Origin: an uncultured Saprospiraceae bacterium
GTDB taxonomy: Bacteria > Bacteroidota > Bacteroidia > Chitinophagales > Saprospiraceae
Length of the DNA stretch: 64,000 bases
Reading direction: 5' to 3'
Assembly: GCA_937995755.1 (NCBI GenBank)
Contig: CALKJD010000110.1
Coordinates: 1-64,000, forward strand
Part shown: one piece after another, positions 11,146-35,275 of the stretch
Layout: every line of letters starts with the position of its first letter
How positions within the stretch are numbered: the first letter of the stretch is position 1
Translations under genes and position numbers: made by a program
Notes under the pieces: generated by a model
What the model was told of the DNA's origin: nothing
What the model saw: only the letters and a program-made list of their open reading frames with translations
Database searches by the model: none

Positions 11146-11222
11146 AACAGTGGCTTTTTGTCTGTACTTTTTTCTAGTTGAGTACAAATTCTTCATTAGT
11201 CATATTTTAAAGGCAATGGCAC

Positions 11223-11269
11223 ACAAAAAAAAGACCAAACAGCGCAGAGCGCTATTTGGTCTTTTTTTA
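11223..11269. terminator. Strong bidirectional hairpin terminator (copy 1 of a module)
   Basis: AAAAAAGACCAAA-cagcgcagagcgcta-TTTGGTCTTTTTTT. Confidence 0.75.
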
Positions 11270-11270
11270 A

Positions 11271-11334
11271 ACTCTCAAACTCTCAAACTCTCAAACTCTC
11301 AAACTCTCAAACTCTCAAACTCTCAAACTCTCAA
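11271..11334. repeat. Tandem repeat, 8 perfect copies of the 8-mer ACTCTCAA
   Basis: Counted directly: 64 bp of uninterrupted ACTCTCAA units. Confidence 0.95.
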
Positions 11335-11391
11335 AAGTCTCAATTCTGATAGGCTCAATTCTAAAAGTCTATCGTCTCCAACTCCCAAACA

Positions 11392-13011
11392 TTACAACTT
11401 AACACACTCACCCTCTCTTATAGTCAATACAAAATTGCTAAAGAAATCTACCTCACTCATGACACGATCTATAATGTCTTGCATGATAGGATCTTCTGGT
11501 AGATTAGCATCATAAGTGGCTCCACGAGAGATTACTTCTGCTTGATTACAATATCGCTCAAGAGTAAAATTGTTAAAGTCAAATCGTATGTCTTTCTCTA
11601 CCTTATGGAATTCAATTAAATCCAATAATTCGGTGTAAGCTATCTCCGTCAGATACATACGCTTGACACCATAGTTATACATTATGTCATATGTGTTTTT
11701 ATCTATCCTATTGATCTGCATTCCTGGACGAGAAGCAATTGGACAGAGTGTAGGATCTACTTCTGGTTCGTCCGGTTTGTCTGCACATTGAGCTAGTATT
11801 TCTTCTGTCGAATTACAGCCTGATCCATTGTCTTCCCAAACAGATGGAGGGTCATTATCTCCTCGCTCTAATACAGCACAGACTAGTTTAGAATGGCATA
11901 TGCTCAAGTTAGGATTTTGTGTTACATTAAACCAATGAATTGAATCTGCTTCTATGCCATCTAAGCCAGAGATATCTGATAGATTAGGATTGCTCTGTAT
12001 TCGAAAATATGGTTTAAATCCGGTTACACTTTTTACATTGGATAAAAAATCTAAATGTTCAAAATTACAACGAAATACTTCTATTCTATTGAACCCTACA
12101 CTTTTCAATTTAAGGAAGCTATTAAAAGGGCCCCCATTTATTTCGTAAATATTTAAATTTAGAGTAATCGAAATTAATTTGTTGAAAAGAGTAATGGGTT
12201 CTTCTTGAACTATACCAGAGATTCCAATTGCTCCTGCTGTTTCTAAATTTCTAAAAATATCAATTTCTTCAATAGCAATTCCCAATAGCACAATACCTCC
12301 TGCTACAGGTGTATTGTTGAATCCTTTAAATCTATTTAATCCTGGTGAAAGTATTACTACATTAAACACTGAATCTAATTGATTAAAGCCATCAATTTCT
12401 ACCAAGCTAGAATTACCAATTAACCTTACATTATGAATATATCTTGCAGTGTTAAATGAAGGGATGTTCAATAGGCTTATATTGTCTAAGAAGAATAACT
12501 CTTCTTGGATATACTCCAACCCTTCAAACCCTTCGATCAAACTGAGGTTTTGATTATCGATGATAGCCATATTATTAAGACTGTCTATCTGATTACCTCC
12601 AAAAATATAATTAAGGTTATTGTTTCTAGAAATTTCTATGTTGGATAAAACAGAAGCTTTTATATCCAATAGGATCTCTTGCAAATTAAAATTGTCCGAA
12701 ATAGTTGTATTGCCTTCTACAGTCAAGGTGCTATTCAAAGATTCGATAGAAATAAGTTGGTTGCATAGTTTTATTTCTAAGTCGCCAGTGATAAGTGTAA
12801 TCTGGCTAAGTGGACTTAGGTCTACAATGTTAGACCCATTAGCATCACCCAACAAGATGACCGACCCATCTATAGCAGTGCAATCAGGGTTGTCTATGAC
12901 AAACGCATCTAACTCCAACTGAGTAGAAAATAGGTAATCTTGCACACAAGTCTGTGCTACACTTGATAGACAAGTGCAACACAGATATGTTATTATAATT
13001 AGGTTTTTCAT
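11392..13011 (-). CDS. Secreted protein with receptor-L-domain-like (leucine-rich) repeats
   Basis: Signal peptide (MKNLIIITYLCCTCLSSVAQ); repeating L-x-x-I/L strands, GDLEIKLCNQLISIESL, GFEGLEYIQEELFFLDNISL. Confidence 0.65.
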   Translation of the reverse strand: MKNLIIITYLCCTCLSSVAQTCVQDYLFSTQLELDAFVIDNPDCTAIDGSVILLGDANGSNIVDLSPLSQITLITGDLEIKLCNQLISIESLNSTLTVEGNTTISDNFNLQEILLDIKASVLSNIEISRNNNLNYIFGGNQIDSLNNMAIIDNQNLSLIEGFEGLEYIQEELFFLDNISLLNIPSFNTARYIHNVRLIGNSSLVEIDGFNQLDSVFNVVILSPGLNRFKGFNNTPVAGGIVLLGIAIEEIDIFRNLETAGAIGISGIVQEEPITLFNKLISITLNLNIYEINGGPFNSFLKLKSVGFNRIEVFRCNFEHLDFLSNVKSVTGFKPYFRIQSNPNLSDISGLDGIEADSIHWFNVTQNPNLSICHSKLVCAVLERGDNDPPSVWEDNGSGCNSTEEILAQCADKPDEPEVDPTLCPIASRPGMQINRIDKNTYDIMYNYGVKRMYLTEIAYTELLDLIEFHKVEKDIRFDFNNFTLERYCNQAEVISRGATYDANLPEDPIMQDIIDRVMSEVDFFSNFVLTIREGECVKL

Positions 13012-13364: not shown

Positions 13365-13616
13365 AGGTAGCTAGATCTAGGCAAACTAAAAACTATGGAA
13401 TATCATAATTGATGTTTATATCTAATGTTAATTCCAATTATCAATGCTAAAATAACAGTTTGTTCTGAAGTAGGCGATGTTATTGAATCTAATAATAAGG
13501 AGTATTGCTAAATTAAAAATAATCCACTCCTTTGTATTTGTTTAAGAGGTAAATTCAAAGGTATATTTCTGCTAACCTTCTCTTTATACAAATCACAGCC
13601 GAAAAACTTCGGTAAA

Positions 13617-13662
13617 CAAAAAAAAGACCAAACAGCGCACAGCGCAATTTGGTCTTTTTTTA
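13617..13662. terminator. Strong bidirectional hairpin terminator (copy 2 of the module)
   Basis: AAAAAAAGACCAAA-cagcgcacagcgcaa-TTTGGTCTTTTTTT; near-identical to 11223-11269. Confidence 0.75.
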
Positions 13663-13712
13663 TTCTCTCAATAGTCTCAATTCTAAAAGTCTATCGTCTA
13701 AAAGTCTCAAGT

Positions 13713-15116
13713 CTAAAACTTAAACCCTGCAGTGAATTGAATCACCCCTTTCGTAGTCTCTGTATTGGCTAGTGGAGTATGATCTTCGTTTTGCGGAACA
13801 TAAGCTATATACCCTTCTTCGTTACTGTTGCGTGAATAAGATATATCGAAATAAAAATTATCTTCTCTCAATCCTAATCCATAAGAATAAGTTGAACTAT
13901 ATTCACCTTCGTTCGCATCGTTAGAATATGGTGATTGTAATAATCCTGTTCCTAATCTCAATCTAAATTTTTCATACGCAAGTTCAGTTCCTAATCTAAG
14001 ATTAACCACTGACCCCAATTCTTTTTCTATCTCTTGATTGAGTTCTTCGCCATATACGATGTCTGCAAGTTCTGGACTATAAGCACCTAGGTCGAAATTG
14101 GAAGATGAGTAATCTAAAAATTCTACATCAGCATTGGCAAAACCTTTGATTTTTCCTAAGTTGTACAGTACTCCCACACTACCATTTACTTTCCATGGAG
14201 TTTTGTATTTGTATTTAAAGTTCCCATCAGATGCTAATGCATCAGTTTCGCCATTGTCGAATGTATATTCGTCAGACTCACCAAAATCTTCAGTGATAGT
14301 ATAATAGTTAGGCGAGTGAACAGACGCACCTATTCTAAGTGGTTTTACACCTTTGTAAATAAAGCCAGCTTTAAAGTTGATTCCAGCTCCACTAGCGTTA
14401 AGATAGTCTTCGCGATCATATTTGTTAAATACTTGTAAGGCATTAATTTCATCCTCTTCGACGTAAAATTTCTCTTCATCAAACGAGACAAATGGAATTC
14501 CAAGCGAGATACCAATATCTAATTTGTTGTCATAGTTTCCGGCCCATCCAAAGTTAAGTTCACTGACATATCCTTTCTGAGAAACTAAGTGTTCCTTTCT
14601 TAAAGAAGCATTCTGATATGCAATGTCAAAAATGGCTACTGGTACTTCACTTAAGCTCTCTGAATAACTTCCTACTGTCGTTCCTCGATACAAAAACGAT
14701 TTGTTTAGATCAGCTACTTTTTGAAATCCAATAGTAAAATTAGATGTCTGCCATTTACCTGAGCTTGGTCTTGATACAAATACGGCAGCCATATTGCTTA
14801 ATCCAAAATTAGTTTTTGATTGATTAGTTGTGTTTGCCGAATCTTCTACTAAGAAAGCATCTGTATTAGTACTTGTGATAGTAGGTGTAAACGTAAATTC
14901 TGATCTATAGAATCCTGCTAATCCTGCTGGATTGATACTCATAGCACCAATGTCGCCTCCCATGGATCCAAATGATCCTCCTACGCCAGCTACTCTCGCT
15001 GTACCCTGTGGTGTCAGCACAGAGTATCTAAGCGCGTCAGATATAGTCTGTCCGTAGCTACTTACTCCTACGCATGCCAGTATTAGGGTAAGCGTTATAT
15101 ATTTTATTCTAGTCAT
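13713..15116 (-). CDS. Outer membrane protein, OmpP1/FadL-like transporter family
   Basis: 467 aa, signal peptide, DALRYSVLTPQGTARVAGVGGSFGSMGGDIGAMSINPAGLAGF, C-terminal aromatic residue FKF. Confidence 0.8.
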   Translation of the reverse strand: MTRIKYITLTLILACVGVSSYGQTISDALRYSVLTPQGTARVAGVGGSFGSMGGDIGAMSINPAGLAGFYRSEFTFTPTITSTNTDAFLVEDSANTTNQSKTNFGLSNMAAVFVSRPSSGKWQTSNFTIGFQKVADLNKSFLYRGTTVGSYSESLSEVPVAIFDIAYQNASLRKEHLVSQKGYVSELNFGWAGNYDNKLDIGISLGIPFVSFDEEKFYVEEDEINALQVFNKYDREDYLNASGAGINFKAGFIYKGVKPLRIGASVHSPNYYTITEDFGESDEYTFDNGETDALASDGNFKYKYKTPWKVNGSVGVLYNLGKIKGFANADVEFLDYSSSNFDLGAYSPELADIVYGEELNQEIEKELGSVVNLRLGTELAYEKFRLRLGTGLLQSPYSNDANEGEYSSTYSYGLGLREDNFYFDISYSRNSNEEGYIAYVPQNEDHTPLANTETTKGVIQFTAGFKF

Positions 15117-31538: not shown

Positions 31539-32597
31539 ATGAAATTAAGACTACCCATTATTATTGCACTTTTCTCAGTGATGGCATTTGTTGTCCATGC
31601 ACAAAATGAGATTCATTTCACACAGTTTGAGATGGCACCTATTCAGCTTAATCCAGCATTAGCAGGTGACTTTCAAGGAACATACAGAATTGGAGGAATT
31701 TATAGAGATCAGTGGTTTACTGCGGTCCAAGAGTCGAGTAGCTCATTCAAGACGGCAGATTTATTTGTAGATGTGAATGTGATCAGAGGATTACGTAAAC
31801 AAGATTGGGTATCTGTAGGACTTGGATATTCGGTGGTGGATAAGGCAGGAAGTATAGGATCTACTAGCGATAATAATGGAGGACTTAGCAATAGTTTCTT
31901 TAATATGGGGGCAGCATACCATTTGGCAAATAAGAAAAGATCCAATATTCTGTCTATTGGCGTACAGCGCTCTTCTGTCAGTACCAAAATCACAACATTG
32001 CAGATCGAAGATGATAGATTTGGGCTTGTGAATAATTCAATATCCGAAGATGCCAGAATGTTTAATGAGATGCAAATGGATGGGGCATTAGAAAATAGCT
32101 TCTCTGATTGGCAATTTGGATTAGTGTATAATAGACGCGGTAAAGAAAGTGATTTTAAAATAGGACTTAGTGCTTCTAGGTTATTCAATGCAAGGTTTAC
32201 AGCTGGCGGATTGAGGTCAGATATTGACCCTTTGATAGCAGCCTTTGCGGAATACAAAATGGCAATGGGAGGAAATGGAATGTGGATTAAGCCATCCTTA
32301 CTATATATGACACAAGGACCTGCTAGCGAATTAGCTATACAAGGAAGAGTCGGTAGGCCAATGAATGAAAATCTGTCTATCAATGCTGGACTAGGAATGA
32401 GAATGGGTGATGCAGTACAAGTTTTATTAGGTGCAGAGTTTAAGCAATATAAAATTGGCGCGAGCTACGACATCAACTTTTCAGGGCTAACAGCTGCGAG
32501 TAGCACAGTAGGTGGTTTTGAGTTAGCGTTGATCTATACGGGTAGTATCAATAAAAAGCCTAAGCTGAAGCCAATAATTATTTGCCCTAGGTTGTAA
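31539..32597 (+). CDS. PorP/SprF family type IX secretion system membrane protein
   Basis: QNEIHFTQFEMAPIQLNPALAGDFQGTYRIGGIYRDQW. Confidence 0.93.
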   Translation: MKLRLPIIIALFSVMAFVVHAQNEIHFTQFEMAPIQLNPALAGDFQGTYRIGGIYRDQWFTAVQESSSSFKTADLFVDVNVIRGLRKQDWVSVGLGYSVVDKAGSIGSTSDNNGGLSNSFFNMGAAYHLANKKRSNILSIGVQRSSVSTKITTLQIEDDRFGLVNNSISEDARMFNEMQMDGALENSFSDWQFGLVYNRRGKESDFKIGLSASRLFNARFTAGGLRSDIDPLIAAFAEYKMAMGGNGMWIKPSLLYMTQGPASELAIQGRVGRPMNENLSINAGLGMRMGDAVQVLLGAEFKQYKIGASYDINFSGLTAASSTVGGFELALIYTGSINKKPKLKPIIICPRL

Positions 32598-32683: not shown

Positions 32684-34732
32684 ATGAAGGCATTACTTAC
32701 AGCAATAACTATTTTCGGATTCGCTATGATCTCTTTTGGTCAGCCCATAGAAAAGGCTAACTATGAGACAATGATAGAGACCGCAGATTCAGCATACAAC
32801 TCTAACGATTATATCAATGCCATCAAATGGTATGGTGATGCATATAAAGAGTCAAAAGATAAAAACCTATCTGCGCTAATGGCTGATGTATATTTCAAAA
32901 TGGGAGATTATATCAAAGCTGAAAAACGATATGATAGACTTGTCAACAAAGACAAAACAGGAGAGTTCGCAGAAGATAGATACCGTCTTGCTCGTGCTAA
33001 GCTTTATCAAGGAAAATATGCGGAAGCTTTAACTGAATTTCGTACATATGCCTCTACTACTGAGGATGCAGACGGCAAAGCTAGCGCAATGCTTTATATA
33101 AAGGGTATTGAAAATATGGATAAGCTTTCGGATAATATCGAAGCTGTAGTGACGCCACTAGATAAAGAAATCAATTCTGCATTGAGCGAGTACTCACCTA
33201 GACAATATGTCGATGGCACATTATACTACGCAGCACTCGTAGGGAAGAAAGCAATTGAAATAAAAGATGAAGAAACTGCTGAAGAGTCTACTTCTAGAAT
33301 ATATATGGCATCTAGAAATGCAGAAGGTGGATATGATGAGCCAGTAGAATTGGGCACACAAATCAATAGAGAAGGATTTCATCAAGGTAACTTATGTTTT
33401 TCAGAAGATGGCAGACGTATGTATTTCACTAGAGCTAAGTTAAAAGGTAACGAACTAGGTGATTTTGCGAAGATATTCGTATCCAATAAAAATGATAGTG
33501 GATGGGGAGCAGCTGAAGAGATGCCAAGTATACAAGGCGACTACTATACCACACAGCCGACTTCTGGTCAATTATATGGTAACGAAGTAATATTCTTTGT
33601 ATCTGATATGCCAGGAGGATTTGGAGGTATGGATATCTACTACACTACAGTATTAGGAGATGGGTATTCTTCACCTGTTAATCTTGGTGAGACGATCAAT
33701 ACACCTAAGGATGATATTACACCATTTTACAAAGATGGAACCTTATATTTTGCATCTCAAGGATATCCTGGATTGGGTGGATTTGATATCTACTATGCCT
33801 CGTGGGATGGTAGTAATTGGTCAGCAGTTACTAACATGGGATTCAATTATAATAGCTCATATGATGACCAGTATTTAAGTCTTACTCAAGATGGATCTAA
33901 AGGATTCCTAACTACTTATAGACCACATAAAGATAAAAAGTCTATCAAGGGATCTAAAGCTTGTTGTCCAGATATACACCAAGTTGAGCTAAGAGATATC
34001 ATCATAGATTTACTAGCTTATATTGAAGATGAAAATGGTCCTCTTATCGGAGGTACAGTAGAAATAGTAGACTTAAGTACAGGAGATGATCCTAATACTA
34101 AGTCTAATTTTACGACTAATGACTTCAACTTTTTACTAGACTCTGATCATGAGTATATGGTAAGGTTTAGCAAGGAAGGATATTTCCCTGATTCAGTCAC
34201 ATTCAATACGGTGGGTGTATTAGATGACTATACAGTGAAGAAGACAATGGTGCTCAAGCAGAAGCCACCTCCACCACCAGAGCCAGAAGAGCCTGAGACA
34301 CAAGTGTTGACTAAAAACGAATCTATCAGATTGAACAATATTTATTACGATTTCGATAAGTCTAATATCTTACCAGATGCAGAGCAGGATCTCTATTATC
34401 TAAAGGAGATTATGGATGAATACCCAAGTCTAGTGATAGAGCTAAGCTCGCATACAGATGCTCAGGGTACCACAAACTATAATAAAAGGTTATCACAGAG
34501 AAGAGCTAATTCTGCAGCAAGATGGTTGACTAAAGCAGGTGTAGATAAAGATCGTATCAAGCCAGTAGGGTATGGTGAATCTATCATCCTCAATCAATGT
34601 ACTGAAGGTGTAACTTGTACTGATGATGAGCACAGATTTAACAGACGTACTGAGTTTAAAATCTTAGATGGTCCAGAGACAATCATCATCAAGACTCCAG
34701 TAAGCAACTGGGATAATCAAAAAAAAAACTAA
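32684..34732 (+). CDS. TPR/PD40/OmpA-domain outer membrane protein (PorE-like)
   Basis: N-terminal TPR-like repeats, PD40-like strands (FSEDGRRMYFTR), C-terminal OmpA domain (YYDFDKSNILPDAEQDLYYLKEIM...SSHTDAQGTTNYNKRLSQRRANSAARWL). Confidence 0.92.
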   Translation: MKALLTAITIFGFAMISFGQPIEKANYETMIETADSAYNSNDYINAIKWYGDAYKESKDKNLSALMADVYFKMGDYIKAEKRYDRLVNKDKTGEFAEDRYRLARAKLYQGKYAEALTEFRTYASTTEDADGKASAMLYIKGIENMDKLSDNIEAVVTPLDKEINSALSEYSPRQYVDGTLYYAALVGKKAIEIKDEETAEESTSRIYMASRNAEGGYDEPVELGTQINREGFHQGNLCFSEDGRRMYFTRAKLKGNELGDFAKIFVSNKNDSGWGAAEEMPSIQGDYYTTQPTSGQLYGNEVIFFVSDMPGGFGGMDIYYTTVLGDGYSSPVNLGETINTPKDDITPFYKDGTLYFASQGYPGLGGFDIYYASWDGSNWSAVTNMGFNYNSSYDDQYLSLTQDGSKGFLTTYRPHKDKKSIKGSKACCPDIHQVELRDIIIDLLAYIEDENGPLIGGTVEIVDLSTGDDPNTKSNFTTNDFNFLLDSDHEYMVRFSKEGYFPDSVTFNTVGVLDDYTVKKTMVLKQKPPPPPEPEEPETQVLTKNESIRLNNIYYDFDKSNILPDAEQDLYYLKEIMDEYPSLVIELSSHTDAQGTTNYNKRLSQRRANSAARWLTKAGVDKDRIKPVGYGESIILNQCTEGVTCTDDEHRFNRRTEFKILDGPETIIIKTPVSNWDNQKKN

Positions 34733-35106
34733 ATAGAAATGAAACTGGAGGTGGAGACGCCTTCGGTGTTCATGAGTTTTTTATAGACTTTGATAATCTT
34801 CCAGAAATTACTTTTGAGAATGACTCTATTGATATAGGTTCGCTCAAACAAGGCGAGTCAGCTGTAGTACTTTTTCCTTTTACGAATACTGGAAAAGGAG
34901 ATCTAATTATAGAGATAGTAACGGCATGTAAATGTACGGATATCGAATATCCAAGACAGGCGATTCCGCCAGGTGGCAAAGGTATTATCAGAGCTGTATT
35001 CGATAGCACTACACAAAAGAAAGGTCAATTAATCAAAGCTTTAGACATAGTATCAAATACAGATCCCATGTTAATAGAAGCCAAATTCGCTGTTTTCGTG
35101 GAGTAA
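34720..35106 (+). CDS. DUF1573 domain coding region lacking a start codon; -1 frame relative to the OmpA gene, probably expressed as a fusion
   Basis: Open frame from the A10 run to TAA at 35104-35106: ...ETGGGDAFGVHEFFIDFDNLPEITFENDSIDIGSLKQGESAVVLFPFTNTGKGDLIIEIVTACKCTDIEYPRQAIPPGGKGIIRAVFDSTTQKKGQLIKALDIVSNTDPMLIEAKFAVFVE. Confidence 0.85.
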   Translation, partial: KKKLNRNETGGGDAFGVHEFFIDFDNLPEITFENDSIDIGSLKQGESAVVLFPFTNTGKGDLIIEIVTACKCTDIEYPRQAIPPGGKGIIRAVFDSTTQKKGQLIKALDIVSNTDPMLIEAKFAVFVE

Positions 35107-35275
35107 TTTCCGGCTTTTCGTTAGAAAAACGGAAATACCGAAATGAGCGGTTTCCTCATTTCGAGAAAAAACAAATTTCCGGCTTTTCGCCAGAAAAACG
35201 GAAATATCGAAACGCGAGATTTCCTCGTTTCGAAAAAAAACAAATTTCCGGATTTTCGTGAGAAAAACGGAAATA
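35107..35275. repeat. 69-bp tandem repeat, about 2.4 copies, built from two alternating hairpins
   Basis: TTTCCGGCTTTTCG..AGAAAAACGGAAA at 35107, 35176 and 35245 (period 69); intervening CGAAATGAG/CTCATTTCG and CGAAACGcgAG/CTCGTTTCG. Confidence 0.92.

Follow-up and report, generated by a model that had tools for sequence, protein, structure and literature searches.

The question raised by this locus is how a DUF1573 domain that lacks a start codon, and that lies in the -1 frame across the end of an OmpA gene, could be translated. The locus is part of a 64-kb window (the whole stretch of DNA analysed, 64,000 nucleotides) from the genome of an uncultured Saprospiraceae bacterium, here termed G000. 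The main ORF (32684..34732, + strand) encodes a putative short product of 682 aa with a signal peptide, TPR, a PD40 propeller and an OmpA peptidoglycan-binding domain. Read directly, positions 34718-34732 are CAA AAA AAA AAC TAA and include an A10 tract (34719..34728, +), the putative slippage site, an in-phase heptamer A_AAA_AAC (34723..34729, +), a potential site of ribosomal -1 slippage, and, directly 3' of the tract region, the stop codon of the unshifted frame (34730..34732, +), with the unshifted OmpA product ending KKN-stop at the tract. The -1-frame ORF (34717..35106, +; 129 codons) is start-less before 35068, where its first ATG lies, the next start-like codon being a GTG at 35098. 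Adding one A to the transcript gave, on computed translation, exactly 807 aa with no internal stops, 125 of these residues being added from the -1-frame ORF. The tail peptides predicted for this form are GIIRAVFDSTTQK and QGESAVVLFPFTNTGK; no product has been observed. These results agree with an earlier note on this DNA, which had placed the A10, the end of the OmpA ORF and the open -1 frame to 35106 at the same positions, had found no ATG, GTG or TTG before 35068 in that frame and had inferred a fusion of 807 aa. Across the whole 64-kb window, the A10 at 34719-34728 is the only A/T run of at least 9 inside a long ORF, and A10-N-TAR occurs at only two sites in the 4.4-Mb genome, this tract included. 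The other site (G000:C27:27367-27380, locus L233) is embedded in a PspC-like gene whose reading frame continues across it, so that a slip would produce a truncated protein. This rarity, like the codon pattern of the tail given below, points to more than a chance arrangement. Because a start codon is absent, the DUF1573 tail may be annotated as a pseudogene or missed altogether by automatic annotation.

The main ORF matched OmpA, PD40 and TPR in Pfam. It also matched the NCBIfam CHU_0125_OmpA profile (E 4.5e-100 over residues 28-662) and the PorE profile (E 1.5e-81), both matches spanning nearly the full length of the 682-aa protein, but it reached neither the CHU_0125 family cut-off (NF053607; 336 bits vs 620) nor the curated PorE cut-off (NF052230; 274.6 bits vs 600). 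PorE is a component of the type IX secretion system (T9SS) with TPR, propeller, CRD and OmpA domains (PMC7192894). The 682-aa protein shares with PorE and CHU_0125 OmpA-like proteins the TPR, propeller and OmpA C-terminal architecture, the near full-length profile match and a PorP/SprF neighbour, but differs from them in scoring below the NCBIfam cut-offs, in having no visible lipobox in its signal peptide and in carrying a DUF1573 tail. Judged by sequence, it thus only resembles a PorE/CHU_0125-like TPR-propeller-OmpA protein. Its N-terminus reads as a signal peptide by eye, no predictor having been used. The gene upstream (31539..32597, +) encodes a PorP/SprF family type IX secretion membrane protein and is likely the partner gene of the OmpA-like gene; PnuC, MMPL and ABC transporter genes are found downstream.

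In the tail ORF, the DUF1573 domain call of the earlier note was upheld by a Pfam match (E 2.5e-20, residues 31-123) with a score of 72.8 bits, above the gathering score of 26.1. The domain (34807..35085, +) is an Ig-like/PapD-like sandwich with a CxC motif that is invariant in the DUF1573 tail. Structure prediction gave an Ig-like sandwich (pLDDT 84.8), and the PDB structures closest to this model were the HYDIN PapD-like domain 2e6j (TM 0.66) and the P. gingivalis protein 2qsv, the function of which is unknown. Directly after the DUF1573 stop, a 69-bp unit occurs 2.5 times in tandem (35105-35275), each copy being hairpin-capable; this repeat was not seen in the sequence after the DUF1573 stop of the congener G001. 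Elsewhere in the window, two nearly identical hairpin-plus-repeat segments (11218-11340 and 13611-13720), 2.4 kb apart, flank a Receptor-L-domain ORF on the minus strand (11392-13011), one of them with about nine tandem AAACTCTC octamers.

Comparison with congeners showed that the tail is under selection in the split state. In G001 (CALLPN010000016.1, uncultured Saprospiraceae), the A10 and the split are kept, with TAG as the stop codon, although 63% of synonymous sites differ between this genome and G000; the arrangement is therefore neither an error nor a fresh pseudogene. Between the two genomes, the OmpA codons gave a dS of 1.44 and a dN/dS of 0.023, and the tail codons a dS of 1.32, a dN of 0.039 and a dN/dS of 0.029, with tail differences at codon positions 1, 2 and 3 of the -1 frame numbering 9, 3 and 51, respectively. 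This low ratio and codon pattern indicate that translation of the tail is selected in the split state. In a third congener, G002 (locus L009; 2.9 Mb assembly), the tract is A5 and the DUF1573 tail after the OmpA stop has decayed with several frameshifts, so that, as judged from the sequence, tract and tail have been lost together and the tail appears dispensable in some lineages.

The survey was extended to 398 family and 399 order genomes together with fetched regions, two genus searches and a named-genome scan; the named genomes are nearly all metagenome-assembled, and the ortholog sample follows search matches and is not a random draw. Among 141 non-redundant orthologous loci (class counts including one reassignment), 58 were fused in one frame (6 of these with a linker homopolymer of at least 8), 28 were split at a homopolymer, 12 had DUF1573 in a separate gene with a start of its own, 39 were tail-less, 1 was decayed and 3 were unclear. 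The 28 splits comprised A10 (13), T9 (11), A9 (3) and A11 (1), never a tract shorter than 9, and spanned about 28 species in 11 genera of Saprospiraceae (g1, g93, g62, g77, g113, g120, g17, g29, g104, g63 and the G200/G111 group). The tail was in the -1 frame in every one of them and in the +1 frame in none, and 17 of the 28 tails had no ATG, GTG or TTG before the domain. Most A10 cases read [GC]AA AAA AAA AA[CTG] TA[AG] in the unshifted frame. In g63, every split species had exactly T9, located 3' of a GGKQS motif instead of 5' of it; the run begins at the second codon position in some species and at the third in others, with differing residues. Three species of g93 have kept A10 despite saturation of the synonymous sites that follow it. 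Mapped on a quick tree of the OmpA part, the split label required 13 changes, of which well-supported branches force at least 7, showing that the split is not one frozen accident. Across species, then, these sequences conserve the length of the tract but not its base (A or T), its position, its codon phase or the residues around it; variation within species was not covered. Certain fused lineages carry an A8-A10 in frame at this position; a slip on it would lead to the short form within a few codons. In-frame A9-A10 runs were noted in the same linker of the fused orthologs L036/L132 (G200), L014 (G015), L200 and L041 (G090).

We consider it likely, in the absence of RNA or protein data, that expression of this gene involves a programmed frameshift at the A10, brought about by RNA-polymerase slippage with insertion of one base and giving forms of 682 and 807 aa. 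RNA polymerase would slip on the A10 and leave a fraction of transcripts with one extra A. Unaltered transcripts would yield the secreted 682-aa TPR-propeller-OmpA protein ending at the tract, and A11 transcripts would be read through into the -1 frame to yield the 807-aa form with the C-terminal DUF1573 Ig-like domain. As both forms share the signal peptide and the peptidoglycan-binding domain, the tract would set the proportion of envelope anchors with and without the DUF1573 tail. Production of both forms, the leading part of polymerase slippage and the importance of the ratio are inferred, as is any role of DUF1573; what the sequences show is the arrangement itself, its conservation, a start-less tail under purifying selection and a -1 relation that never changes. 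Supporting context comes from relatives within the family in which OmpA and DUF1573 are simply fused in one frame. A run length conserved among homologs has been proposed as a criterion for purposeful slippage (PMC1088944), and known slippage genes carry A10, A11 or T9, in a range of nine to eleven (PMC6260861; PMC4256274). The locus satisfies two criteria of dnaX/tssM-type slippage: the frames join at an A/T run of about 9 or more (28/28), and tract and split are conserved with the downstream frame under selection. As length is kept while phase, residues, base and position vary, polymerase slippage fits better than a ribosomal -1 shift. Insertion predominates in Thermus dnaX slippage (PMC5009743; PMC6260861), which would explain why only -1 tails were found. 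Against this reading, a strictly constant frame sense is also predicted by ribosomal -1 shifting, the heptamer and hairpin of the window's genus suit that mechanism too, the tail has been lost in G002, the named genomes are nearly all metagenome assemblies, and no description of Bacteroidetes polymerase slippage at A10 was found in the literature searched.

The main competitor is a ribosomal -1 frameshift, in which ribosomes would slip on A_AAA_AAC just before the stop with the help of a downstream hairpin, the mRNA remaining unaltered. As an account of the locus this seems unlikely, though it has support in the window's genus, where the in-phase heptamer of X_XXY_YYZ form is followed after 9 nt by a predicted 15-bp RNA hairpin with a GAGA loop (34739..34773, +). 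This fold is conserved between G000 and G001 (z about -3.5 and -3.7, respectively), one U-G pair being replaced by C-G in G001, and the junction including the hairpin has the lowest synonymous divergence of 702 windows (1/14 sites vs 63% overall). A ribosomal share is therefore not excluded in the window's genus, and the constant -1 direction is compatible with it. On the other side, the runs are always 9-11 long where 6-7 would suffice, T9 is kept in two codon phases, hairpins in other genera are absent or at varied distances, where a stimulatory structure would be expected about 5-9 nt downstream, and suppressed synonymous change after the tract, clear in G000/G001 only and partial in one A9 pair (p 0.006), is not clear in T9 pairs and absent in g93, where the tract persists and alone seems enough. 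Slip loci, unlike fused linkers, showed excess folding after the tract (mean z at the tract end about -1.7 for the A group and at +25 about -3.7 for the T group); as the stems differ in sequence and spacing, no structure common to the slip loci is claimed. Matches to an upstream Shine-Dalgarno-like stimulator were scattered, none being consistent across slip loci. A small hairpin (TCCAGT/ACTGGG; 34696..34712, +) is weakly predicted upstream of the tract (z about -2), its role being unknown. Near-perfect inverted repeats of 14-17 bp were also observed in the linker downstream of the tract at the slip loci L235, L245, L239 and L209; they differ between species in sequence and position, and their function is unknown. 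The earlier note had left polymerase and ribosome undecided; the evidence favours the polymerase, with a ribosomal contribution possible in the window's genus.

The remaining explanations do without a programmed shift. A lysine-rich linker might have gained indels, with background slippage rescuing enough tail for the split to be nearly neutral; poly-A tracts are indel-prone, fused relatives with in-frame A8-A10 exist (G200, G015, G111) and the tail has decayed in G002. One more A at a hypermutable site would, however, restore the fusion, yet the out-of-frame state persists, never as +1, and outlasts saturated synonymous divergence in several genera, which leaves such tolerance improbable. The earlier note had named a phase-variable tract and a homopolymer error as its main alternatives, and both do poorly against a -1 sense in all 28 splits. 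Contingency switching, in which changes in the number of As in the DNA would turn the fusion on or off between cells, draws on a homopolymer lying in a gene whose product belongs to the cell envelope and on relatives that differ between A8, A10 and the in-frame state, but +1 cases would be expected and there are none among the 28 out-of-frame loci, and every split species of g63 has exactly T9, so that little credence can be given to it. A homopolymer misread or misassembled in what is really a plain fusion gene would fit with how common fused orthologs are; the same frame sense recurring in 28 genomes, in independent assemblies of many species, cannot be explained by such error, and we regard it as practically ruled out. 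Equally hard to credit is independent translation of DUF1573 as a gene of its own, through an internal start codon or reinitiation. G022, G012 and G175 do have a DUF1573 gene with an ATG and a signal peptide, but here start codons are absent before 35068, the tail by itself has no signal peptide, and the start-less tails in most splits (above) speak against it likewise. The earlier note had suggested a search for homologs fused in one frame or keeping the A-tract with the split, and both were found among Saprospiraceae. It had also held that orthologs with their own DUF1573 start and signal peptide would refute its proposal; such orthologs exist in some relatives (e.g. G022 and G012) but have another architecture than this locus, for which the claim stands. 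The conserved split, tract and frame strongly support a programmed shift giving the 682- and 807-aa forms, product data being absent. A broader reading, offered tentatively and with less confidence than slippage at this locus, is that Saprospiraceae possess a family-wide slippage device that has been repeatedly re-invented. Hard fusion, separate gene and homopolymer slippage would alternate, the tract having moved and been exchanged (A10, A9, A11, T9) without departing from the -1 sense or from a length of about 9-10; the ratio of forms would itself be selected, and the hairpin in the window's genus would add a ribosomal layer.

In E. coli dnaX, a ribosomal -1 frameshift takes place at A_AAA_AAG with a stem-loop. 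The window's genus shares with it an in-phase A heptamer followed by a hairpin, but the present tract is longer, has no clear upstream Shine-Dalgarno sequence and belongs to a family in which the hairpin is not general. To our knowledge, few cellular genes have been described in which slippage gives two functional products, and most of these are single cases. The Citrobacter rodentium tssM1 gene undergoes transcriptional slippage at an A11 before a premature stop (PMC4256274); shared features are a poly-A near the stop of an envelope protein gene, an inserted A that restores a C-terminal domain and two length variants, and Yersinia tssM3 shows the mirror arrangement, as do the in-frame A10 fusions here (PMC4256274). 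The tssM genes are unrelated to the present gene and a tract was found in only two of them, compared with 28 orthologs in 11 genera here with A and T variants, for which slippage is experimentally unproven. In dnaX, Thermus has a nine-base run and Chlorobi has 10 A (PMC5009743, PMC3711429); common to these and the present gene are a conserved homopolymer of 9-10 bases and two products of one gene (putative here), whereas gene, function and phylum differ and the present shift extends an envelope protein by a distinct domain. No earlier report linking OmpA-DUF1573 or Saprospiraceae to slippage was found in the literature searched, a limited test with most subscription journals outside it. With at least 28 natural examples alongside fused, separate and tail-less relatives, both the value of having two forms and the choice between polymerase and ribosome become testable by comparison. 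The kind of recoding is thus already known from dnaX and tssM and the gene family is new to it, no product having been observed; what sets this case apart is how widely it occurs, that A and T tracts replace one another and that fused and separate forms exist beside it.
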